Position numbers and translations under genes: made by a program. The notes beneath the pieces were generated by a model. That model had not been told where the DNA came from and made no database searches. It saw only the letters and a list, made by a program, of their open reading frames with translations. A stretch of DNA of 64,000 nucleotides from Zoogloea sp. (lineage in GTDB: Bacteria > Pseudomonadota > Gammaproteobacteria > Burkholderiales > Rhodocyclaceae): positions 18,907 to 82,906 of the forward strand of contig JAKLLO010000004.1 in NCBI GenBank assembly GCA_023150095.1. Reading direction: 5' to 3'. Each line of letters opens with the position of its first letter. Position 1 is the first letter of the stretch. Below, piece after piece: positions 3,368-15,091 of the stretch.

Positions 3368-3426
3368 GCCCCCACCCCGCACCACCGGCCGCCCCGCGCG
3401 GCCGGCACCCACCGGAGGAAATCGAC

Positions 3427-4467
3427 ATGAACAACTATTACAGCCAGGACAACCACGGTCCGTTCAAGACCATCAACATCGGCACGCTGGAGCTGGAGGA
3501 AGGCGGCGTGCTGCCCGACTGCACCCTCGCCGTGGCCACCCACGGCACCCTCAACGCCGCCCGGGACAACGCGATCCTGGTGCCCACCTGGTATTCCGGC
3601 ACCAGCAAGATCATGGAGCAGGTGTACATCGGCCCGGGCCACGCCCTCGACCCGACGCGCTACTTCATCATCGTGGTGAACCAGATCGGCAGCGGCCTGT
3701 CCCTGTCGCCGAGCAACGCGCCCGCGGCGATTGCCGGGCCGAACTTTCCGAAGGTGCGCATCGGCGACGACGTGCGCGCCCAGCACCGGCTGCTCACCGA
3801 ACACTTCGGCATCCAGCGCCTGGCGCTGGTGGTGGGCGGCTCGATGGGCGCCCAGCAGACCTACGAATGGGCGGTGCGCTACCCGGACATGGTCGAGCGC
3901 GCCGCGCCCATCGCCGGCACCGCCTGCAACACCGAGCACGACTTCGTGTTCGCCGAAACCCTGATCGAGGCGATCACCTCCGACCCGGGTTTCCGCAACG
4001 GCGACTATTCATCGGCGGCCGAGGTGGCGGCGGGCCTCAAACGCCACGCCAAGCTGTGGACGGTGATGGGCTGGAGCACGGAGTTCTTCCGCTGCGGGCG
4101 CCACCGGGTGCTCGGCTTCGAGTCGATGCAGGCCTTCGTGGATCAGTTCATGACCGGCTACTTCGGGCCGATGGACCCGAACAACCTGCTCGCCATGGCC
4201 TGGAAGTGGCAGCGCGGCGACGTGAGCCGCCACACCGGCGGCAACCTGGCCGAAGCCCTGGGCCGCATCAAGGCTAAAACCTATGTGATGCCGATCAGCC
4301 ACGACATGTTCTTTCCGCCCAGCGACTGCGTGGCCGAACAGCAGCTGATCCCGAACAGCGAGTTCCGTCCCGTGAGCAGCATTGACGGCCACCTCGCCCT
4401 GTTCGGCACCGACGCCCACGCCATCGCCGAAATGGACAGCCATCTGCGGGAACTCCTCGCCAGCTAG
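3427..4467 (+). CDS. Alpha/beta fold hydrolase, homoserine O-acetyltransferase (MetX)-like family
   Basis: MNNYYSQDNHGPFKTINIGTLELEEGG...; nucleophile elbow GGSMGAQQTYEW; C-terminal DGHLALFG. Confidence 0.8.
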   Translation: MNNYYSQDNHGPFKTINIGTLELEEGGVLPDCTLAVATHGTLNAARDNAILVPTWYSGTSKIMEQVYIGPGHALDPTRYFIIVVNQIGSGLSLSPSNAPAAIAGPNFPKVRIGDDVRAQHRLLTEHFGIQRLALVVGGSMGAQQTYEWAVRYPDMVERAAPIAGTACNTEHDFVFAETLIEAITSDPGFRNGDYSSAAEVAAGLKRHAKLWTVMGWSTEFFRCGRHRVLGFESMQAFVDQFMTGYFGPMDPNNLLAMAWKWQRGDVSRHTGGNLAEALGRIKAKTYVMPISHDMFFPPSDCVAEQQLIPNSEFRPVSSIDGHLALFGTDAHAIAEMDSHLRELLAS

Positions 4468-4542
4468 AACCGCCTCCGAAAGGTGTCGTCGTCCTTCAGC
4501 AGGGACGATGACGACACCGGCGCTCCCCGCGGGTGCCTTTGC

Positions 4543-4575
4543 GGCGCATCAGGGCAACCTGATGCGCCATTTTTT
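4543..4575 (+). terminator. Rho-independent terminator
   Basis: GGCGCATCAGG-GCAA-CCTGATGCGCC followed by ATTTTTT; perfect 11-bp stem with GNRA-type loop. Confidence 0.85.
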
Positions 4576-4628
4576 GCGTGGAGCTGCGTGGGTTAGGGTT
4601 TGGGTGAACGCGGGGCCCGGACGTTGCG

Positions 4629-5516
4629 TCAGGCGCCGCCGTCCTTCTTCAGCCGGGCCGGCGTGGTGCCCAGCCGCGCCCGCATCACGCGGGTCATGTG
4701 GGCCTGGTCGGCAAAGCCGCACATGGCTGCCACCTCCTTGATGGCCAGCCCGCGGGTGGCGAGCAGGCGCGCGGCCCGCTCGACCCGCCGCATCATCACG
4801 AACTCGTAGGGCGAACAGCCCATCGAGGCGCGGAAGTGCTTGGTGAAGGTCCAGATCCCGAGCCCGAGGGTCTCGGCCATCTGCTCGATGGTGATGCCTT
4901 CGTGCAGATGGGATTCGACGAACTCCTCGAGCCGCCGCACCCGGCTGGGCGACAGCGGGCCGGCGGGCATCTCGTCGCGGAAGGTGAAGCGCGCGTACTT
5001 GCGGAACAGATGCACCGCCAGCTGGATCGACAGCGCCTCCACGTAGAGGCTGCCGCCCAGCCCGCGCTGGCGCGCCTCGAGGGTGATTGAATCGACGATC
5101 TGCGTGACCACCGGGTCCTGCCCCTGCAGCACGTCGTGCAGCCGCACCTCGGCCACGCTGCGCTCGGTGACGTCGGAGGCCACCCGGGCCATCAGGGCTT
5201 CGGAGAGATAGGTGTGGGAGACCTCGATACACTGGGTCCAGTGCCAATGGGACGACTCGGAGCGGGTGAGCAGCGAGAAATCGCCGGGCGTGCAGCGCTT
5301 GCGGCTCCAGCGCCCCTCGACGCAGCGGTCCATCGGCGTGACGCCCGCGTGGTAGCGCACCACCATGAAGTGATCCATCGGCGGGATCGGCACGTCGAGC
5401 CCGGTGTAGCGGTAGGCCCGGTGCCCGACGTTCTTCCAGCCCAGACCGTCGCTCGACGAGGTGATCCGGCCTGGCACCCAGGTGGGCAAGTCCCGCGGAG
5501 AAATCAGGTTAGCCAT
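4629..5516 (-). CDS. AraC family transcriptional regulator
   Basis: C-terminal double HTH: GITIEQMAETLGLGIWTFTKHFRASMGCSPYEFVMMRRVERAARLLATRGLAIKEVAAMCGFADQAHMTRVMRARLGTTPARL. Confidence 0.9.
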   Translation of the reverse strand: MANLISPRDLPTWVPGRITSSSDGLGWKNVGHRAYRYTGLDVPIPPMDHFMVVRYHAGVTPMDRCVEGRWSRKRCTPGDFSLLTRSESSHWHWTQCIEVSHTYLSEALMARVASDVTERSVAEVRLHDVLQGQDPVVTQIVDSITLEARQRGLGGSLYVEALSIQLAVHLFRKYARFTFRDEMPAGPLSPSRVRRLEEFVESHLHEGITIEQMAETLGLGIWTFTKHFRASMGCSPYEFVMMRRVERAARLLATRGLAIKEVAAMCGFADQAHMTRVMRARLGTTPARLKKDGGA

Positions 5517-5790
5517 CGCGCGATTGCTTCAATAACGAAACCGGAGAGCCAGGGGAATGGGTTCAGGGGCTGCGCCCTGGAGTTGCAATCATACAAATAT
5601 TATTTAAATGACTGAATAAAATTAAGTGATTGCGACGCACGCGGGGCGACAGGCCGCGGGGCGCAGCCGCAGGGCCTTGGCAGGCTGGCAGATGAAGCGG
5701 GGTCGAAGGGGAGCGGGCCGCCGGAGGGCACCGGCGGGGGGGGTGGACTGAGGGGGGGGTGGGCGACTGAAGTCGCCCCTACGGTCGCCC

Positions 5791-6516
5791 CTACAGAAGG
5801 CCGACCTTGACCATCTTGCGGCGCAGGAAGGCGATCTGGGTTTGCAGCGACAGGCCTTTCGGGCACACGTCGTGGCAGCCAAGGAGGCTCATGCAGCCGA
5901 ACACCCCGGTGTCGTCGCCGATGAGTTCATAGAAGTCGTCGTCGCTGCGGGTGTCCCGCGGGTCGAGGCGGAAGCGGGCGATCTTGTTGAGGCCGACGGC
6001 GCCCACGAAGTCGGGGCGCATCTGCGCCGTGCCGCAGCCGGCGATGCAGCAGCCGCATTCGATGCAGCGGTCGAGCTCGTAGATGGCTTCGGCGAGGGCC
6101 GGGTCCATCCGGGCCTCTACCGCCGTGAGGGCGGTTTCTTCCTGGCTGTGGATCCAGGTTTCGAGGCGTTCGGCGGTGCCGCGCATCCACTTGCCGGTGT
6201 TCACCGACAGATCGCCGATCAGCTCGAACACCGGCAGCGGGGCCAGGGTGATGAGGGGGTCGAGATCGCGGGTGAGGCAGCGGCACGCCAGGGTGGGCTT
6301 GCCGTTGACGAGCATGGCGCAGCTGCCGCAGATGCCGGCGCGGCACACGAAGTCGAACTGCAGCGAGGGGTCGAGGCGCTCGCGGACTTCGCCCAGGGCG
6401 AGGAAGAGGGTCATGCCCTCGGCCTCTTCGACGAGGAAATCCTGCCAGTGGGGGGCGATGCCCTCGCCCGGGCTGCTGCGCAGGATGCGCAGGGTGAGGC
6501 TGCGGGGGGCGGTCAT
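5791..6516 (-). CDS. frdB: Succinate dehydrogenase/fumarate reductase iron-sulfur subunit
   Basis: 2Fe-2S motif CRAGICGSCAM...C plus CIECGCCIAGC and CHDVCPKG clusters. Confidence 0.88.
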   Translation of the reverse strand: MTAPRSLTLRILRSSPGEGIAPHWQDFLVEEAEGMTLFLALGEVRERLDPSLQFDFVCRAGICGSCAMLVNGKPTLACRCLTRDLDPLITLAPLPVFELIGDLSVNTGKWMRGTAERLETWIHSQEETALTAVEARMDPALAEAIYELDRCIECGCCIAGCGTAQMRPDFVGAVGLNKIARFRLDPRDTRSDDDFYELIGDDTGVFGCMSLLGCHDVCPKGLSLQTQIAFLRRKMVKVGLL

Positions 6517-6541
6517 GGCGGGGCCTTTCGCGGGGGCGGGC

Positions 6542-6871
6542 TCAGTGGCCGCCGCGCACGGGGATGCGCATGCCGTCCCAGCCTTCGGCGTGGATGCCGG
6601 GGGCCACGGCAATGTCGCGGCCCAGATCACGGACGAAGGCGGTGCACGGCACGCCGGGCACGCCGTTGATGGTGACGCTGCAGGTGTTGCAGGCGCCGGA
6701 GTGGCACATGAAGCCGTCGGCCCAGGTGGGCGGCAGCGCGCCCTTGGCCTGCTTGATGGCGCCCAGCAGGGTCATGTCGGGGGTTTCGACGATCTCGACC
6801 GGGGTGGAGCCGCCGGTGAGGGTGCGCAGATGGAGGGTGACAGTGCGGACGTGGGACATGGGAGCGTTCAT
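6542..6871 (-). CDS. 2Fe-2S ferredoxin-like protein inserted between frdA and frdB
   Basis: [21 protein letters not shown]...[26 protein letters not shown]; plant-type 2Fe-2S ligand spacing, no C-terminal 4Fe-4S/3Fe-4S domain. Confidence 0.8.
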
Positions 6872-8847
6872 GGTGTGGCGTCTCCGGGCCTTTCGTTGCG
6901 GCCCCGGTAGCGTTCCGGGAGCAGGTGGTCGAAGGGCATCAGGGCGTGTTGCAGGGTGTATCGGTCGGCGTGGCCGAAGGCTTTGCGAATGGCGTTGATC
7001 TCGTCCGCGCGGACGGCCGTGGCCGGGTGTTCGATGGCGTTGCGGGCGCCGTAGCCGCGCCAGCCGGGGGGCAGTTCCATGGCGGCCACGTCCAGGACTT
7101 CCCAGGCGAGGGTCGGCAGGGTGTCGTCGCCGTGCCAGGTGGCGAGGGTGCGCTTGAGCCAGTGGGCGTCGTCGCGGGCGGGGTAGTCCTCGCGGAAGTG
7201 GGCGCCGCGGCTTTCGGTGCGGGTGAGCGCGCCGTGGGCGACGCACAGGGCGAGCTTGAGCATCTTCTGCACCCGGTAGGCGGCCACCAGTTCGGGGTTG
7301 CTGCCGGGGCGGCGGGTGGCGATGCCGATGTAGCGGCTCTTCTCCAGCAGTTGCTGGAGTTCGCTCACCGCGGATTCGAGCAGATCGCCGCGGCGGAAGA
7401 TGCCCACCTTCTCGGTCATGATGTCCTGCATCCGTCGTGTGATGTCGGCGGCGCTTTCGCTTCCGTTGCCATGCAGCAAAGTGTCGAGCTTTGCCTGCTC
7501 CCGTTCGAGGAACTCCCGCACGAGGGCGGTGGAGACATGCAGATCGCCTGCGTCGGATTCCACGAAGTCGGCCATCTTCTCGCCGACGATCATGCCGGCG
7601 ACCACCGTCTCGGCCACCGAGTTGCCGCCCAGCCGGTTGAAGCCATGGAGATCCCAGCAGGCGGCCTCGCCGCAGGCAAACAGGCCGGTGAGGCCGCGGG
7701 CGTGGCCGGCGGCGTCGGTGCGGATGCCGCCCATCGAGTAATGCTGGGCCGGCCGCACCGGGATCAGGTCGCGGGCCGGGTCGATGCCCAGGAAGTGCTG
7801 GCAAATCTCCTTCACCTCGCGCAGGCGCCCGTCGATGTGGGCCTTGCCGAGCAGGGTGATGTCCAGCCACAGGTGCTCGCCAAAGCGGGTCTTCACCCCG
7901 TGGCCGGCGCGGATGTGTTCTTCCATGCGCCGCGACACCACATCGCGAGAGGCCAGCTCGCGCTTTTCGGGCTCGTAGTCGGGCATGAAGCGGTGGCCGT
8001 TGGCGTCCCGCAGCAGCCCGCCGTCGCCCCGGCAGCCTTCGGTGACGAGGATGCCGGCGGGGAAGATGGTGGTGGGGTGAAACTGCACCGCCTCCATGTT
8101 GCCCAGCGGCACCACGCCGGTTTCCAGCGCGATGGCGGCACCGATGCCTTCGTTGATGACGGCGTTGGAGCTCACCCGGTAGATCCGCCCGAAGCCGCCG
8201 GTGGCGATGCAGGTGGCCTTGGCCACATAGGCCGAGAGCTCGCCAGTGACGAGATCGCGCACGATGGCGCCGTGGCAGCGGCTGCCGTCGTGGATCAGCG
8301 CGATGGCCTCGGTGCGCTCATGCACCGGGATGCTCTCTGCCACGGCCTGGTCGGAGACCGCGTAAAGCATGGCGTGGCCCGTGCCATCCGAGACGAAGCA
8401 GGTGCGCCACTTTTTGGTGCCGCCAAAATCCCGGGCGGCGATGAGGCCGTGCATCGCGGCGGGCTCGGTGAGCGTTACCCGCTGGCCGTCCATCACCACC
8501 TCGCGGGGGCCGGCCTGGATGCGGTTCCACGGAACGCCCCAGGCGGCGAGCTCGCGCACAGCCTGGGGGGCGGTGTGCACGAAGAGGCGCGCCACCTCCT
8601 GGTCGCAGCCCCAGTCGGAGCCGCGGACGGTGTCTTCAAAGTGCACGTCCTCGTTATCGCCGGCGCCCATCGCGGTGTTGCCGAGGCTGGCCTGCATGCC
8701 GCCCTGGGCCGCGGCGGAGTGCGAGCGCTTGGGCGGCACGAGGCTCAGGATGATCACGTCGTGGCCGCGGCGTCGGGCGCCCACGGCGGCGCGCAGGCCC
8801 GCGAGGCCGCCGCCGATCACCAGCACGTCGGTGTAGTGGATGCGCAT
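6868..8847 (-). CDS. frdA: Succinate dehydrogenase/fumarate reductase flavoprotein subunit
   Basis: [35 protein letters not shown]...[14 protein letters not shown]...[21 protein letters not shown]. Confidence 0.92.
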
Positions 8848-8849
8848 GG

Positions 8850-9680
8850 TCAGCCCCGGGCGGCCTTGGCCGCGGTGGGCACGTAGGGTTCGCCGGCCCG
8901 GTCGGCGTGGGCGATCCCCAGCTGCACGTAGGCCAGCAGGGTGACGAGGCCGAGGCCCACGAAGAACACGCTGAATGCCGTCTTCACCGCCCGCAGGCGG
9001 CGCCGGCTGGCGGCCGGGTCGCGCCCTTCGAGCCAGCCCCACTTGAGGGCCAGCCGGTACAGGCCGACGCTGCCGTGGAGCTCGACCGCGAACAGCAGCA
9101 GCAGGTAGAGCGGCCACATGGTGCCCGTCCAGATGCGGTCGGCGGATTCGTACGGGCCGATCAGCTCGGGATGCACCAGCATGCCGTAGAGGTGCACGGT
9201 GCCCAGGAAGAACAGCGCAAAGCCGGTCCACAGTTGCAGCCACCACAAGCCGGTATCGCTGTGGCGCAGCTGCCGGCGATGGGCGGCGAAGGCCTGATAT
9301 TGGCGCCAGTTGGCGGGAAACTTGCGCAGCGCCAGCCACGCGTGGCCAACGAAGACCGCCAGCACGACGCCCACCACGCACGACACGACCCACGGCTGGG
9401 GCGTGCCGAACAGCCAGCCGGCCTCGAAAAATCGTGCGACGGTGTAGAAGGCATCGTGGCTGATGAGGATGGACGACACGAAGAACATGTGGGCCACCAG
9501 AAAGACCGCCAGAAACAGCCCGGAGGCGCTCTGGAGCAGGTCGAGCCGGGCCGGCCAGCGGCTCTTCTTCAGGCGGCGGGCGGCGTGGGCGGGATGGGAA
9601 ACCGCAGCCGGAATGCCCGGAAGAGCCGGGGCGGCGGCGTCGGGCTGGAAGAGCCCGGTCTGTTCGATGGAACGCGTCAT
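8850..9680 (-). CDS. frdC: Fumarate reductase cytochrome b subunit (Wolinella FrdC-like, single diheme anchor)
   Basis: Multi-TM ORF with [26 protein letters not shown] and [13 protein letters not shown]; immediately upstream of frdA. Confidence 0.82.
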
Positions 9681-10025
9681 GATGAGGAGACCGCGGTGAA
9701 TCAACCACCAGCCGGCTGGTCATGGGGCACCTGCGCGGGGGACGCATCCCTCGCCCGGTGCGACACAACCCGAACCTGGGGTTCGAGCCGGCGCCTTGTC
9801 TCCTCTTTTTTTCTCTCTTGGGCTACAGCACTGATCGACGGCGTGAGTTCAAGCTAGTCCGTCTTTGGATATATTGCTGTGCACAATGCCGCGATTAACG
9901 GTCGGACACCGGCCGAATTGAGGGTTTTACGCTGGGGGCCACCGGAATCCGTTGTTTTTCGGCAACAGGAACGCCGGCGTGCCCGGGGTTACACTGGCGC
10001 CCTTCCCTTTCACACCCCACGCACC

Positions 10026-10475
10026 ATGCAAATCTGGATCGACGCCGACGCCTGCCCGGCCGTGGTCAAGGACATCATCTTCCGTGCCGCCGAGCGCCTG
10101 CAGATCCAGACCTTCGTGGTGGCCAACCGGCTGCTGCGCACGCCGCCGTCGCGCTTCATCCGGGCGATCCAGGTGCCTTCGGGCTTCGACGTGGCCGACG
10201 CCCACATCGTCGATACGCTGGCGGCGGGCGATCTGGTCATCACCGCCGACATTCCGCTGGCCGCCGCGGTGCTGGAACGCCAGGCCCACGCCCTCAACCC
10301 GCGGGGCGAGATGTACACCGCGGCCAACATCGCCGAGCGGCTGTCGATGCGGAATTTTCTGGAAGAGCTGCGCAGCAGCGGGGTGCAGACCGGCGGCCCG
10401 GCGGCCTTCAGCCAGGCCGACCGGCAGGCCTTCGGGGCTGCGCTGGACCGCTTTCTGGCCAGGGCGACGCGCTGA
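10026..10475 (+). CDS. YaiI/YqxD family protein (DUF188)
   Basis: [37 protein letters not shown]...[12 protein letters not shown]. Confidence 0.92.
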
Positions 10476-10478
10476 ACC

Positions 10479-11894
10479 TCAGCCGTCCAGATCGGCCGCC
10501 AGCTGGCGTGCGATGGCCGCCAGGGCGCGGACCAGATCGGGCGCCGACAGCGCATCGAGGGGCGTGGCCATGTCGTGCATGGCCTGGATGTGCCCCACCG
10601 GATTCGGCGCATCGCCGATCGCGCTGAGCAGCACCCAGCGCACCTTGACCGCGTAGCGGGCCGTGGCCTCGAGAAAGAAGCCCAGCTCCTCGCTGCGGAT
10701 GAAGGGCGAGGCCAGAAAGCCCGGTGACACCAGCAGCAGGGCGACGCGGGTGGAGGCCAGCGCCCGGTCGATGGCGTCGCGCCACAGCTCGCCGGCCTCG
10801 ATCCGGGAGTCGTCCCACACCTGCAGGCCGCGCAGTTCGACGTAGGGTTCCAGCGGCGCCTTGACCACGTCCAGCCATGCCTTGTCCCGGTGGCTGTAGC
10901 TGATGAAGAGCTGGCTGCGGGAGATGCGTGACAGGCGGTTGGCGAAGCCGCGCATCATCGCCGAGGCGGTCATCACGGCCCGCTCGTCGTGGACGCGGTC
11001 GGCGGGCCGGCTGCCCGGCTGGGCCCGCCGGCGCTCGCCGGAGAGATCGTTTCCCCAGTCGCGCAGGCATGCCGTGGCGGCGCGGCGCCCGGCTTCAAAG
11101 AGGTAGGGCTTGCGCGTCTGGGCGGCGTCGAACTGCTCCATCTCCAGGTCGAAAACCGGCACCTCGATGAGCCGCGCCCGGGGGATTTCGTCGATGAGGT
11201 AGTGGTCACGGCTGGCCACGCCGGCACCGACGATGGTCTTGATGAAGCGGCCGATGCCCTCAGGCGGCGTGGTGACCGGCGCGTCCGCCGGCTGGAGGGC
11301 CACGATGGGGTATTCGTCATCGAAACGCCCGACCATCCAGATCGGGCAGTGGGTGGCGATGGCCGCATCCACCACCACCCGCCCGCCGGCTTCGTGGGGC
11401 GGGAAGAACAGCGGGATGCCCACCGCGATGCGCACCGCCTCGGTCACCTTCATGTCGGCGTGGGTTTCGCTGGCATACACGAGGAGCTGCTTCGAGAGCA
11501 GGTCGATGCCCGCCGTGGCAAAGGGGATCGCCATCTCGCCGAAGGTTTTGCCGGGGCCGATCAGCTCTTCCATCATCTGCACCACCGCGTCGCTGTCGTA
11601 GGGCGCGAAGGGCCAGCGCAGCCAGGACACGTAGCGCAGCGGCCCGGGCAGGCTGGGCTTGCCCAGCAGGCGGCGCAGATCGACGGCCTCGACCCGCGCC
11701 TGCACTTCGCGCATGGGCAGGCCGGTGGCGACGAGGGCGCCGATCAGGCTACCCGCCGAGCAGGCCGAGATGCTGGCGAACTCGATGCCGGCCTCTTCGA
11801 GCACTGCCAGCGCCCCCACGTAGGCCAGGGTCTTGACGCCGCCCGACCCGAGCACGAGATGAACCCGGGTGCGCGGTGTCGGAAGGGCGGCCAC
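10479..11894 (-). CDS. Patatin-like phospholipase / TIR domain fusion protein
   Basis: N-terminal patatin fold motifs VLGSGGVKTLAYVGAL, SACSAGSLIGAL, VVVDAAIATHCPI; C-terminal TIR: LFISYSHRDKAWLDVVK...GLQVWDDSRIEAGELWRDAIDRALASTRVALLLVSPGFLASPFIRSEEL. Confidence 0.85.
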   Translation of the reverse strand: MAALPTPRTRVHLVLGSGGVKTLAYVGALAVLEEAGIEFASISACSAGSLIGALVATGLPMREVQARVEAVDLRRLLGKPSLPGPLRYVSWLRWPFAPYDSDAVVQMMEELIGPGKTFGEMAIPFATAGIDLLSKQLLVYASETHADMKVTEAVRIAVGIPLFFPPHEAGGRVVVDAAIATHCPIWMVGRFDDEYPIVALQPADAPVTTPPEGIGRFIKTIVGAGVASRDHYLIDEIPRARLIEVPVFDLEMEQFDAAQTRKPYLFEAGRRAATACLRDWGNDLSGERRRAQPGSRPADRVHDERAVMTASAMMRGFANRLSRISRSQLFISYSHRDKAWLDVVKAPLEPYVELRGLQVWDDSRIEAGELWRDAIDRALASTRVALLLVSPGFLASPFIRSEELGFFLEATARYAVKVRWVLLSAIGDAPNPVGHIQAMHDMATPLDALSAPDLVRALAAIARQLAADLDG

Positions 11895-11903
11895 GGTTTC
11901 GCC

Positions 11904-12875
11904 TCAACCCAGCGCGGCGGGCTTCGTGCAGCCGTCGTCCATGCCGTCCAGTTCGATCTGGATCGTGGGGTGATGGATGCGGAAGCGGTGTTCCAGCCCT
12001 TTGGCCACGTCGACCAGAAAGGCATCACCCGGATGGCCGCCGGGCATCACCAGATGCGCCGAAAGCGCGGTGTCGGACGTGCCCAGCGCCCAGATGTGCA
12101 GGTCGTGCACGTCCGTCACGCCGGGCAGGCCGGCGAGCCAGGTGTGCACATCCACGAGGTCGATGCCTTCCGGCACGCCATCGAAGGCCAGGTGCAGCGA
12201 CTGGCGGAACAGGCCCCACGAGCCGATCACGATCACCGCGGCGATCGCCAGGCTGACCACCGGGTCGAGCCACGCCCAGCCGAAGTTCAGGTACAGCGCA
12301 CCTGCCGCCACCACGCCCAGCGACACCAGCGCGTCGGCCGCCATGTGCAGGAAGGCGCCGCGGATGTTGAGGTCGTCCTTGCTGCCGGACATGAACAGCA
12401 CCGCGGTGATGCCGTTGATCACCACCCCGATCGCCGCGACGACGATCACCGTCCAGCCGGCCACCGGCTCGGGCGCCTGCAGGCGCTGGAACGCCTCCAG
12501 CGCCAGCGCCCCCATCGCCACCAGCAACAGCACACCGTTGGCCAGCGCGGCGAGGATCGAGGCCCGCGCCCAGCCGTAGGTGAGCTTGTGGGTCGGGCGC
12601 AGGCGGGCCGCGGCGCTGGCGCCCCAGGCGAGGATCAGCCCGGCGACATCCGACAGGTTGTGGCCGGCATCGGCCAGCAGCGCGAGGGAGCCGGACATCC
12701 AGCCATAGAAGGCCTCGACCAGCACGAAGCCGATGTTGAGGGCGATACCGATGGCGAAGGCCCGGTCGTAGGACGCCGGCCCGTGGTGATGGCCGTGGCC
12801 ACCGTGACTGTGGTCGTGCCCATGCCCGTGAGCGTGGCTGCAGGCGTGGCCGTGATGGGCGTGGTCGTGACTCAT
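11904..12875 (-). CDS. CDF family cation (Zn/Co/Cd) efflux transporter
   Basis: His-rich N-terminus MSHDHAHHGHACSHAHGHGHDHSHGGHGHHHG; HNLSDVAGL and HMAADALVSLGVVAAG metal-site motifs. Confidence 0.93.
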   Translation of the reverse strand: MSHDHAHHGHACSHAHGHGHDHSHGGHGHHHGPASYDRAFAIGIALNIGFVLVEAFYGWMSGSLALLADAGHNLSDVAGLILAWGASAAARLRPTHKLTYGWARASILAALANGVLLLVAMGALALEAFQRLQAPEPVAGWTVIVVAAIGVVINGITAVLFMSGSKDDLNIRGAFLHMAADALVSLGVVAAGALYLNFGWAWLDPVVSLAIAAVIVIGSWGLFRQSLHLAFDGVPEGIDLVDVHTWLAGLPGVTDVHDLHIWALGTSDTALSAHLVMPGGHPGDAFLVDVAKGLEHRFRIHHPTIQIELDGMDDGCTKPAALG

Positions 12876-13997: not shown

Positions 13998-14897
13998 TCA
14001 GGCGGTGCGGGCAAACTTGCCCTGGCGCATCGCCTTCAGCTGGCGACGGGCAATGAACAGGCCGATCTGCTGGATCGGGTTGCGGTTGCCGCCCGGTCGC
14101 CAAGTCTTGATGTAGCGGTTGCGGTAGGCGTCGAAGTGAAAACCCCAGGGGGCGCACAGCACCTTGCCGCGGCCGAGGAGGATCTTGAGGGCTTCGGTGG
14201 CCGTCACGCCGGCACACAGCTGGCAGGCGGCGATGGTGCTGGGGCCACGCCGGGCGTTGAAATCTACCCGGGTCGGATCGGCCAGATAGCCGCGCTGGAG
14301 CATCGCCGGCGACAGGCCGAGGAGAAAGCGCACCGCCATCTCGTCCTCGTCGCAGCCGTCGAGGCGGAAGTACTCTTCGAAGGACATCTGCCCCGGCAGG
14401 AAGGACAGCACCGCCGTGCCCATGCCCAGCGGCGCCGCGGTGACCGCCGGCACACCCAGCCGGTGGCAGGCATAGAAGGTGTCGCGGCGGGCCTTGAACG
14501 CAAAGAAATCCAGGCCGTCTACATAAAGGTCGACGCCGGAAAGGAAATCGTCCAGATTGGAAGCGTCAACGCCTTTGTCGAAGATCCGGATGTCGAGCTC
14601 GGGGTTGATGTCCTTCGCCATCCGGGCCATGACCTCGGCCTTGGGCTGGCCGACCGTCGACATGGACGCACCCGCCTGGCGGTTGAAGTTCACCACGTCG
14701 AAGGTGTCCATGTCGGCGATGTTGAAGGCGCCGACGCCGAGCCGGGTGAGGGTGAGCAGATGCACGCCGCCCACGCCGCCCATGCCGGCGATGGCAATGC
14801 GCTTGCCGCGCAGCGCGGCCTGCTCGGCCTCGGTGACCCAGCCGATGTTGCGGGCAAAGGCCTCGTGGTAATCAAAGTTTGCGTTGGCGTCGGGCAT
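13998..14897 (-). CDS. ThiF/HesA/MoeB (E1-like) family adenylyltransferase
   Basis: GKRIAIAGMGGVGGVHLLTLTRLGVGAFNIADMDTFDVVNFNRQAGA; CQLCAGVTATEALKILLG. Confidence 0.87.
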   Translation of the reverse strand: MPDANANFDYHEAFARNIGWVTEAEQAALRGKRIAIAGMGGVGGVHLLTLTRLGVGAFNIADMDTFDVVNFNRQAGASMSTVGQPKAEVMARMAKDINPELDIRIFDKGVDASNLDDFLSGVDLYVDGLDFFAFKARRDTFYACHRLGVPAVTAAPLGMGTAVLSFLPGQMSFEEYFRLDGCDEDEMAVRFLLGLSPAMLQRGYLADPTRVDFNARRGPSTIAACQLCAGVTATEALKILLGRGKVLCAPWGFHFDAYRNRYIKTWRPGGNRNPIQQIGLFIARRQLKAMRQGKFARTA

Positions 14898-15091
14898 GCG
14901 TATCGAATCCGTCAGACCAGGAAACATTATGATACGACAGTTCGCGTCCACATCCGGCCCGGTTGCCCATCCCGGCCGCCGTCCGTCGGACGGATCGGAC
15001 CGGCCATACCGATCGGCCCTTCAGGACTTTGAGCCGGGGTCGTTGATGTTCGATACATCCATTCCGTATAACCAGAAGAGGCCCATCAGCC

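Follow-up and report, generated by a model that had tools for sequence, protein, structure and literature searches.

A patatin-TIR fusion gene of Zoogloea, kept under purifying selection and possibly encoding a self-contained immune-type protein

Background

Patatins and TIR domains are used separately by bacteria to kill phage-infected cells; normally they are alternative executioners, each with a sensor of its own. In the window, as the whole 64,000-nucleotide stretch of DNA from the water bacterium Zoogloea analyzed here is called, a single gene encodes both. The questions raised by this locus are whether such a gene is genuine, how it was gained, and what a protein may do in which two executioners are joined.

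Structure of the fused gene

The coding sequence is located at 10479..11894 of the window on the minus strand, from a GTG codon at 11894-11892 to a stop codon at 10481-10479, and encodes 471 amino acids; over the same interval the plus strand contains stop codons. A candidate ribosome-binding site, GAGG, may be read from the sequence at 11902..11905 (minus strand), 7 nt 5' of the GTG, where it overlaps the stop codon of the upstream gene. The open reading frame had been described in an earlier note, and is found at exactly these coordinates with the motifs quoted there.

The same note had proposed an N-terminal patatin followed by a C-terminal TIR domain, and both domains exceed the curated Pfam cut-offs: PF01734 (Patatin) is assigned to residues 13-186 with 84.4 bits (cut-off 27.7; E = 1.5e-23), and PF13676 (TIR_2) to residues 330-423 with 43.4 bits (cut-off 28; E = 5.7e-11). 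No recognisable sensor domain was found in the Pfam scan of the 471 residues. When alignments are considered together with PF01734, the patatin core extends over residues 13-187 (11334..11858, minus strand) and contains Gly18-Gly19, Lys21, the nucleophile position Ser46 within ACSAG, and Asp176 within DAA. It is followed by a C-terminal lobe, residues 188-285 (11040..11333, minus strand), defined by alignment and by BLASTP matches of residues 10-280 to L052 and L006; standalone patatins carried by mobile elements have this lobe as well. Residues 286-326 (10917..11039, minus strand), where no Pfam domain is reported, form a linker of about 41 residues leading to the TIR domain, residues 327-471 (10482..10916, minus strand). 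The latter is identified by PF13676, by the ThsB model of PADLOC and by alignments, and features FISYS at 330-334, VWDD with Asp361, and Glu402/Glu403.

Conservation and selection

At the corresponding site, Zoogloea sp. 1C4 (genome G003, loci L008/L050) carries the same 471-codon frame, there starting with ATG; the two proteins share 97% amino-acid identity, with zero indels. The two copies are separated by 44 synonymous and 12 non-synonymous changes, corresponding to a dN/dS of 0.089, which is similar to that of the neighboring genes (CDF 0.083, ThiF 0.069, FrdA 0.08). When the parts are considered separately, the ratio is 0.10 for the patatin and 0.065 for linker plus TIR. None of the 12 amino-acid differences affects a catalytic residue, and one is found in the linker. 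Since the gene is shared by two genomes with such a ratio, the entire fused protein is under purifying selection.

The very narrow distribution of the fusion, described below, might point to an artefact, two genes having been joined by assembly or frameshift, or to a decaying gene. The uninterrupted frame in two genomes, the lack of indels, the low dN/dS and the single amino-acid change in the linker argue against it: the chance of such an origin is minimal, and the second genome, together with the substitution pattern, excludes it for practical purposes.

Distribution of the architecture

Whole-protein searches were performed on Pseudomonadota genomes at increasing distance (149 relatives, 369 genomes from the class, 399 from the order and 299 from the phylum, about 1,200 genome searches with some genomes repeated). 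The full patatin-TIR architecture was found only in the window genome and in 1C4, all other matches being single-domain. A pattern-based scan, run on 84,980 species and reaching close relatives only, returned Zoogloea sp. 1C4 alone. Depth sampling being within the phylum, distant fusions may exist outside Pseudomonadota. Among plasmids 26 records matched, all of them single-domain, and no match to the whole fusion protein was obtained in phages and viral contigs: prophage or plasmid cargo was rejected, as no full-length match is found in phages, plasmids or viral contigs.

In the literature searched, no paper contained the terms 'patatin-TIR' or 'TIR-patatin', and no title named such a fusion. 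The families of both halves are known, as is the principle of fused immune effectors; the sensor-less combination of patatin and TIR was not found in the literature searched.

Genomic localization and gain of the gene

The fusion is flanked on the left by a CDF-type cation efflux gene (11904..12875, minus strand) and on the right by a converging YaiI-like, DUF188-type gene (10026..10475, plus strand); both are reported as context only, and their families are assigned by sequence likeness. CDF and the fusion are on one strand, with 9 bp from the CDF stop codon to the start of the fusion; 3 bp separate the stop of the fusion from that of the yaiI-like gene. At 14 other Zoogloea loci CDF and yaiI are adjacent, their matched ends lying 17-340 bp apart without an intervening gene; at three further Zoogloea loci other genes, read as arsenic-resistance genes by sequence likeness, are found beside yaiI. 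The fusion is a single-gene gain between the CDF-type gene and yaiI, at a site which is empty in relatives. Its presence in two genomes, along with the empty sites, fits an accessory gene, and the simplest explanation is that it was acquired once, by a common ancestor of both carriers. The GC3 of the fusion, 0.91, equals that of neighboring genes, so that any foreign source must have had a similar composition, unless the acquisition is not recent.

No transposase or other mobile-element gene and no long flanking repeats are present at the insertion site; insertion by a mobile element was rejected on these grounds. Near-identical letters surround the stop codons of the fusion and of the CDF gene, at window positions 10477-10484 and 11902-11909 (GGCTGAGG, and GGTTGAGG at the CDF stop), and in locus L008 of 1C4 the CDF stop reads GGCTGAGG. 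This match could be a trace of the insertion route, or chance in GC-rich DNA.

In both carrier genomes the neighbors are housekeeping genes, and the region is not a defence island. The ten flanking proteins gave no match to defence models, with the exception of a ThiF/E1-like gene (13998-14951), which matches CBASS E1-E2 models (best 1.4e-14). Being found at the same place in relatives devoid of the fusion, the ThiF-like gene is not linked to it. This gene is standalone, adjoins a nitroreductase-like gene, and is kept beside CDF in many Zoogloea. As the earlier note had remarked, a cyclase, NLR or Argonaute partner is absent; this holds for the ten flanking proteins. The search for the same architecture and its neighbors, also suggested there, yielded one orthologue, that of 1C4 at the same site, and no defence gene beside either copy.

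The localization of the gene, 9 bp behind CDF, on its strand, and behind the nitroreductase-like and ThiF-like genes, could be expected of a housekeeping lipid or metal-stress enzyme, acting with the upstream CDF efflux gene and probably co-transcribed with it. Yet the 14 relatives, which keep CDF beside yaiI without the fusion, indicate that CDF works alone, and TIR_2 domains are not known to act in metal efflux; a housekeeping role is regarded as highly improbable.

The patatin half

The likeness to CapV of CBASS is weak: against the NCBIfam model CBASS_lipase (CapV) the patatin half scores 16.2 bits, with a cut-off of 200, and in the tree it is placed away from the CapV proteins of Zoogloea, which form a separate clade. 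CBASS membership was rejected, based on this score and on the lack of a cyclase among the ten flanking proteins. The fusion patatin is found, on a long branch (2.17), among standalone patatins of viral contigs and of a Peribacillus plasmid, together with a patatin from the related genome G054; support for this placement is moderate (SH-aLRT 86).

The G054 protein, 27% identical to the fusion across residues 14-279, is also the best full-length match within the patatin family. It ends in a SMODS-associated NUDIX domain (Sa_NUDIX, 1.1e-59) and is encoded directly behind homologues of MkoB (1.4e-74) and MkoA (2.6e-260), within one apparent operon; it therefore represents a second, independent case in which this patatin branch is fused to an immune domain. 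The Mokosh-type operon, including the patatin-Sa_NUDIX gene at its end, spans positions 4912-11861 of locus L128.

Active-site residues were counted in an alignment with 43 other patatins. All of these have Ser46, Gly48 and Asp176, and nearly all have Gly18; the fusion keeps all four residues and accordingly retains the Ser46-Asp176 dyad. Other conserved positions are changed: DAA replaces DGG, with Ala at both Gly177 (43/43) and Gly178 (42/43); AxSxG replaces GxSxG, position 44 being Gly in 41/43 and Ala in the fusion; position 22, Gly in 39/43, is Thr; position 17, Gly in 38/43, is Ser (GSGGVKT); position 182, Asn in 28/43, is His. All these replacements are present in both orthologues. Ala44 alone is tolerated, as Ala is found at this position in 2/43 relatives. 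As judged from the alignment, the altered glycines may leave catalysis intact, retuned or lost.

These replacements are the basis of the main rival to the TIR-gated suicide protein proposed below: the TIR would be the sole enzyme, and the patatin a non-catalytic anchor or sensor, binding lipid or nucleotide, for the TIR NADase. Glycines lost in both orthologues (DAA, AxSxG, GSGGVKT), next to a TIR which keeps its Glu and BB-loop Asp, are consistent with it, as are the long branch of the patatin and the fact that no other domain is available as sensor. Ser46, Gly48, Asp176 and Gly18, however, are all in place, the dN/dS of the patatin indicates strong selection, and the first Gly of GxSxG is replaced by Ala in two of the 43 relatives as well. 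On balance, a patatin without catalytic function is held to be somewhat unlikely.

Among solved structures, phmmer matches PlpD, VipD and ExoU, as might be expected of a secreted toxin directed against other cells, similar to ExoU-like or VipD-like patatins. The matches, though, are weak (best 1e-11, PlpD) and limited to the patatin; the first residues, MAALPTPRTRVHLVLG, run directly into the fold, so that a signal peptide would hardly fit, and neither a secretion nor an immunity gene adjoins the fusion. The probability of a secreted toxin is accordingly very small.

The TIR half

The best PADLOC matches of the TIR part are ThsB (3.1e-12) and SAVED-TIR (5.1e-10); Pfam reports TIR_2 only, not ThsB_TIR (PF08937). 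Thoeris membership was rejected, as no match to the ThsA model was found among the neighbors. FISYS, VWDD (with Asp361, in the BB-loop) and Glu403 match the relatives, although Asp is not at the first position in every one of them. The glutamate region, already noticed as retained, is present in the alignments as Glu402/403: Glu403 is invariant among close relatives, while Glu402 is opposite the catalytic column of AbTIR, Glu208, in an ungapped alignment with AbTIR and PdTIR. Either of the two adjacent residues can be the catalytic Glu. The Trp of WxxxE is absent: Phe398/Ile399 are found where AbTIR has Trp204.

In AbTIR, the counterparts of FISYS, of the BB-loop Asp and of the alpha-C Glu matter for NADase activity (PMC11374754). 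The WxxxE Trp of AbTIR is needed both for NADase activity and for 2'cADPR, while the equivalent residue is dispensable for NADase activity in TcpC (PMC11374754). From the AbTIR Trp204 result, the fusion would be predicted to hydrolyse NAD+ rather than to form 2'cADPR. TIR domains, moreover, are also homotypic interaction modules (PMC8204762).

The missing Trp and this second role of TIR domains leave room for the opposite assignment, with the patatin as effector and a non-enzymatic TIR serving self-association or docking to other TIR proteins of the cell. Partners exist, as nine TIR_2 matches over the cut-off, the fusion included, are found in the window genome. On the other hand, the TIR keeps its BB-loop Asp and an acidic residue at the catalytic position, Trp is not required in TcpC, and the active site of the patatin looks more damaged than that of the TIR; a purely structural TIR appears clearly unlikely.

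Other patatin and TIR genes in Zoogloea

Several of the TIR_2 domains of the window genome (loci L082-L090) belong to long multidomain proteins, classified by eye as LRR-TIR, macro-like-TIR and WD40-TIR. At L121, positions 3378-9510 (contig C232, about 37.4-43.5 kb), three consecutive genes encode a 660-aa TPR-S protein, a 381-aa patatin and a 982-aa TIR-WD40 protein, which holds one of the nine TIR_2 matches; 36 bp separate the first two genes, and 20 bp those of patatin and TIR-WD40. The patatin is canonical (GTSTG, DGG). Patatin and TIR are thus found together twice in the window genome, once split and once fused. In G003 (L122) the TPR-S and TIR-WD40 genes are present, with a patatin match between them; in G006 (L123) a TPR-S protein and a patatin are found without TIR-WD40. 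CapV-type patatin genes are located beside cyclase, E1-E2-like or JAB-like genes at L126, L124 and L127 (Zoogloea G003, G004), indicating that CBASS with a patatin effector is present in several genomes of the genus.

Proposed function

The reading tentatively placed first, at a little less than even confidence, is that of a self-contained, immune-type suicide protein, acquired as a single gene, in which the TIR gates the attached patatin. Some trigger in phage infection would cause the TIR domains to stack. Stacking would form the active site, leading to the consumption of NAD+, and would cluster or re-orient the patatins attached by the flexible linker, which might then bind or hydrolyse membrane phospholipid. 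Growth would stop, or the cell would die, ahead of phage release. TIR assembly, NAD+ consumption and lipase activity are proposed here from what is known of the two families.

In favor of this reading are the Pfam scores of both domains, the selection on the whole protein and its accessory-type distribution, the TIR matches to ThsB and SAVED-TIR together with the TIR residues kept, the localization of the best full-length patatin match in a Mokosh-type operon, the members of the patatin branch carried by viral contigs and a plasmid, and the cassette of the window genome in which a patatin gene adjoins a TIR-WD40 gene. Against it are the lack of a defence neighbor and of a recognisable sensor domain, the single orthologue at the same site and the native GC3, as well as DAA, Ala44, Thr22 and His182 in the patatin, and Phe/Ile for Trp204 in the TIR. 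Because no defence neighbor is present and the only orthologue is at the same site, guilt by association rests on the two halves of the fusion. The interpretation advanced in the earlier note is supported for the architecture and for the family-level links to immunity; its dual effector, acting on membrane lipid and NAD+, stays tentative in view of the lost patatin glycines and the missing WxxxE Trp.

A bolder reading, a one-gene immune circuit, is quite improbable: here a nucleotide signal made by the TIR would act in cis on the fused patatin, as in a TIR-gated lipase. If true, the roles of signal maker and receiver-executioner, which Thoeris and CBASS divide between genes, would be united in a single protein, and the altered pocket of the patatin would act as a receptor adapted to the TIR-made signal.

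Comparison with known systems

The fusion shares with CapV of CBASS, where patatin effectors are used to kill infected cells (PMC8204762), a patatin fold with a Ser-Asp dyad; unlike CapV, it has no adjacent cyclase, carries a TIR and features altered active-site glycines. With Thoeris ThsB, AbTIR and PdTIR it has in common a TIR fold, as recognised by sequence, and the conserved Glu and BB-loop Asp, but ThsA is not adjacent, the WxxxE Trp is replaced, and the TIR is placed behind a patatin. The patatin-Sa_NUDIX protein (L128 10353-11861, G054) similarly joins an N-terminal patatin to a C-terminal domain that immune systems are known to use; it differs by the presence of NUDIX in place of TIR, by its Mokosh-type operon, and by canonical GTSAG and DGG motifs. 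In the TPR-S/patatin/TIR-WD40 cassette (L121) patatin and TIR are likewise encoded together, but by separate genes, three in all, and with a patatin of another branch having canonical motifs. In the CBASS effectors SAVED-TIR and TIR-STING, too, a single polypeptide combines a TIR with a second module; there, however, the partner is a sensor, while in the fusion it is a patatin, usually an effector.

With a fusion that is maintained by selection and devoid of a sensor, it can be asked directly whether the assembly or the chemistry of a TIR can switch on a lipase in cis. Conserved patatin glycines are lost beside an intact Ser-Asp dyad, which poses, in one protein, the question of pseudo-enzyme versus retuned enzyme. 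Taken with the patatin-NUDIX protein of the Mokosh-type operon and with the split patatin/TIR-WD40 cassette, the fusion suggests that the patatin fold has been recombined with several immune domains.
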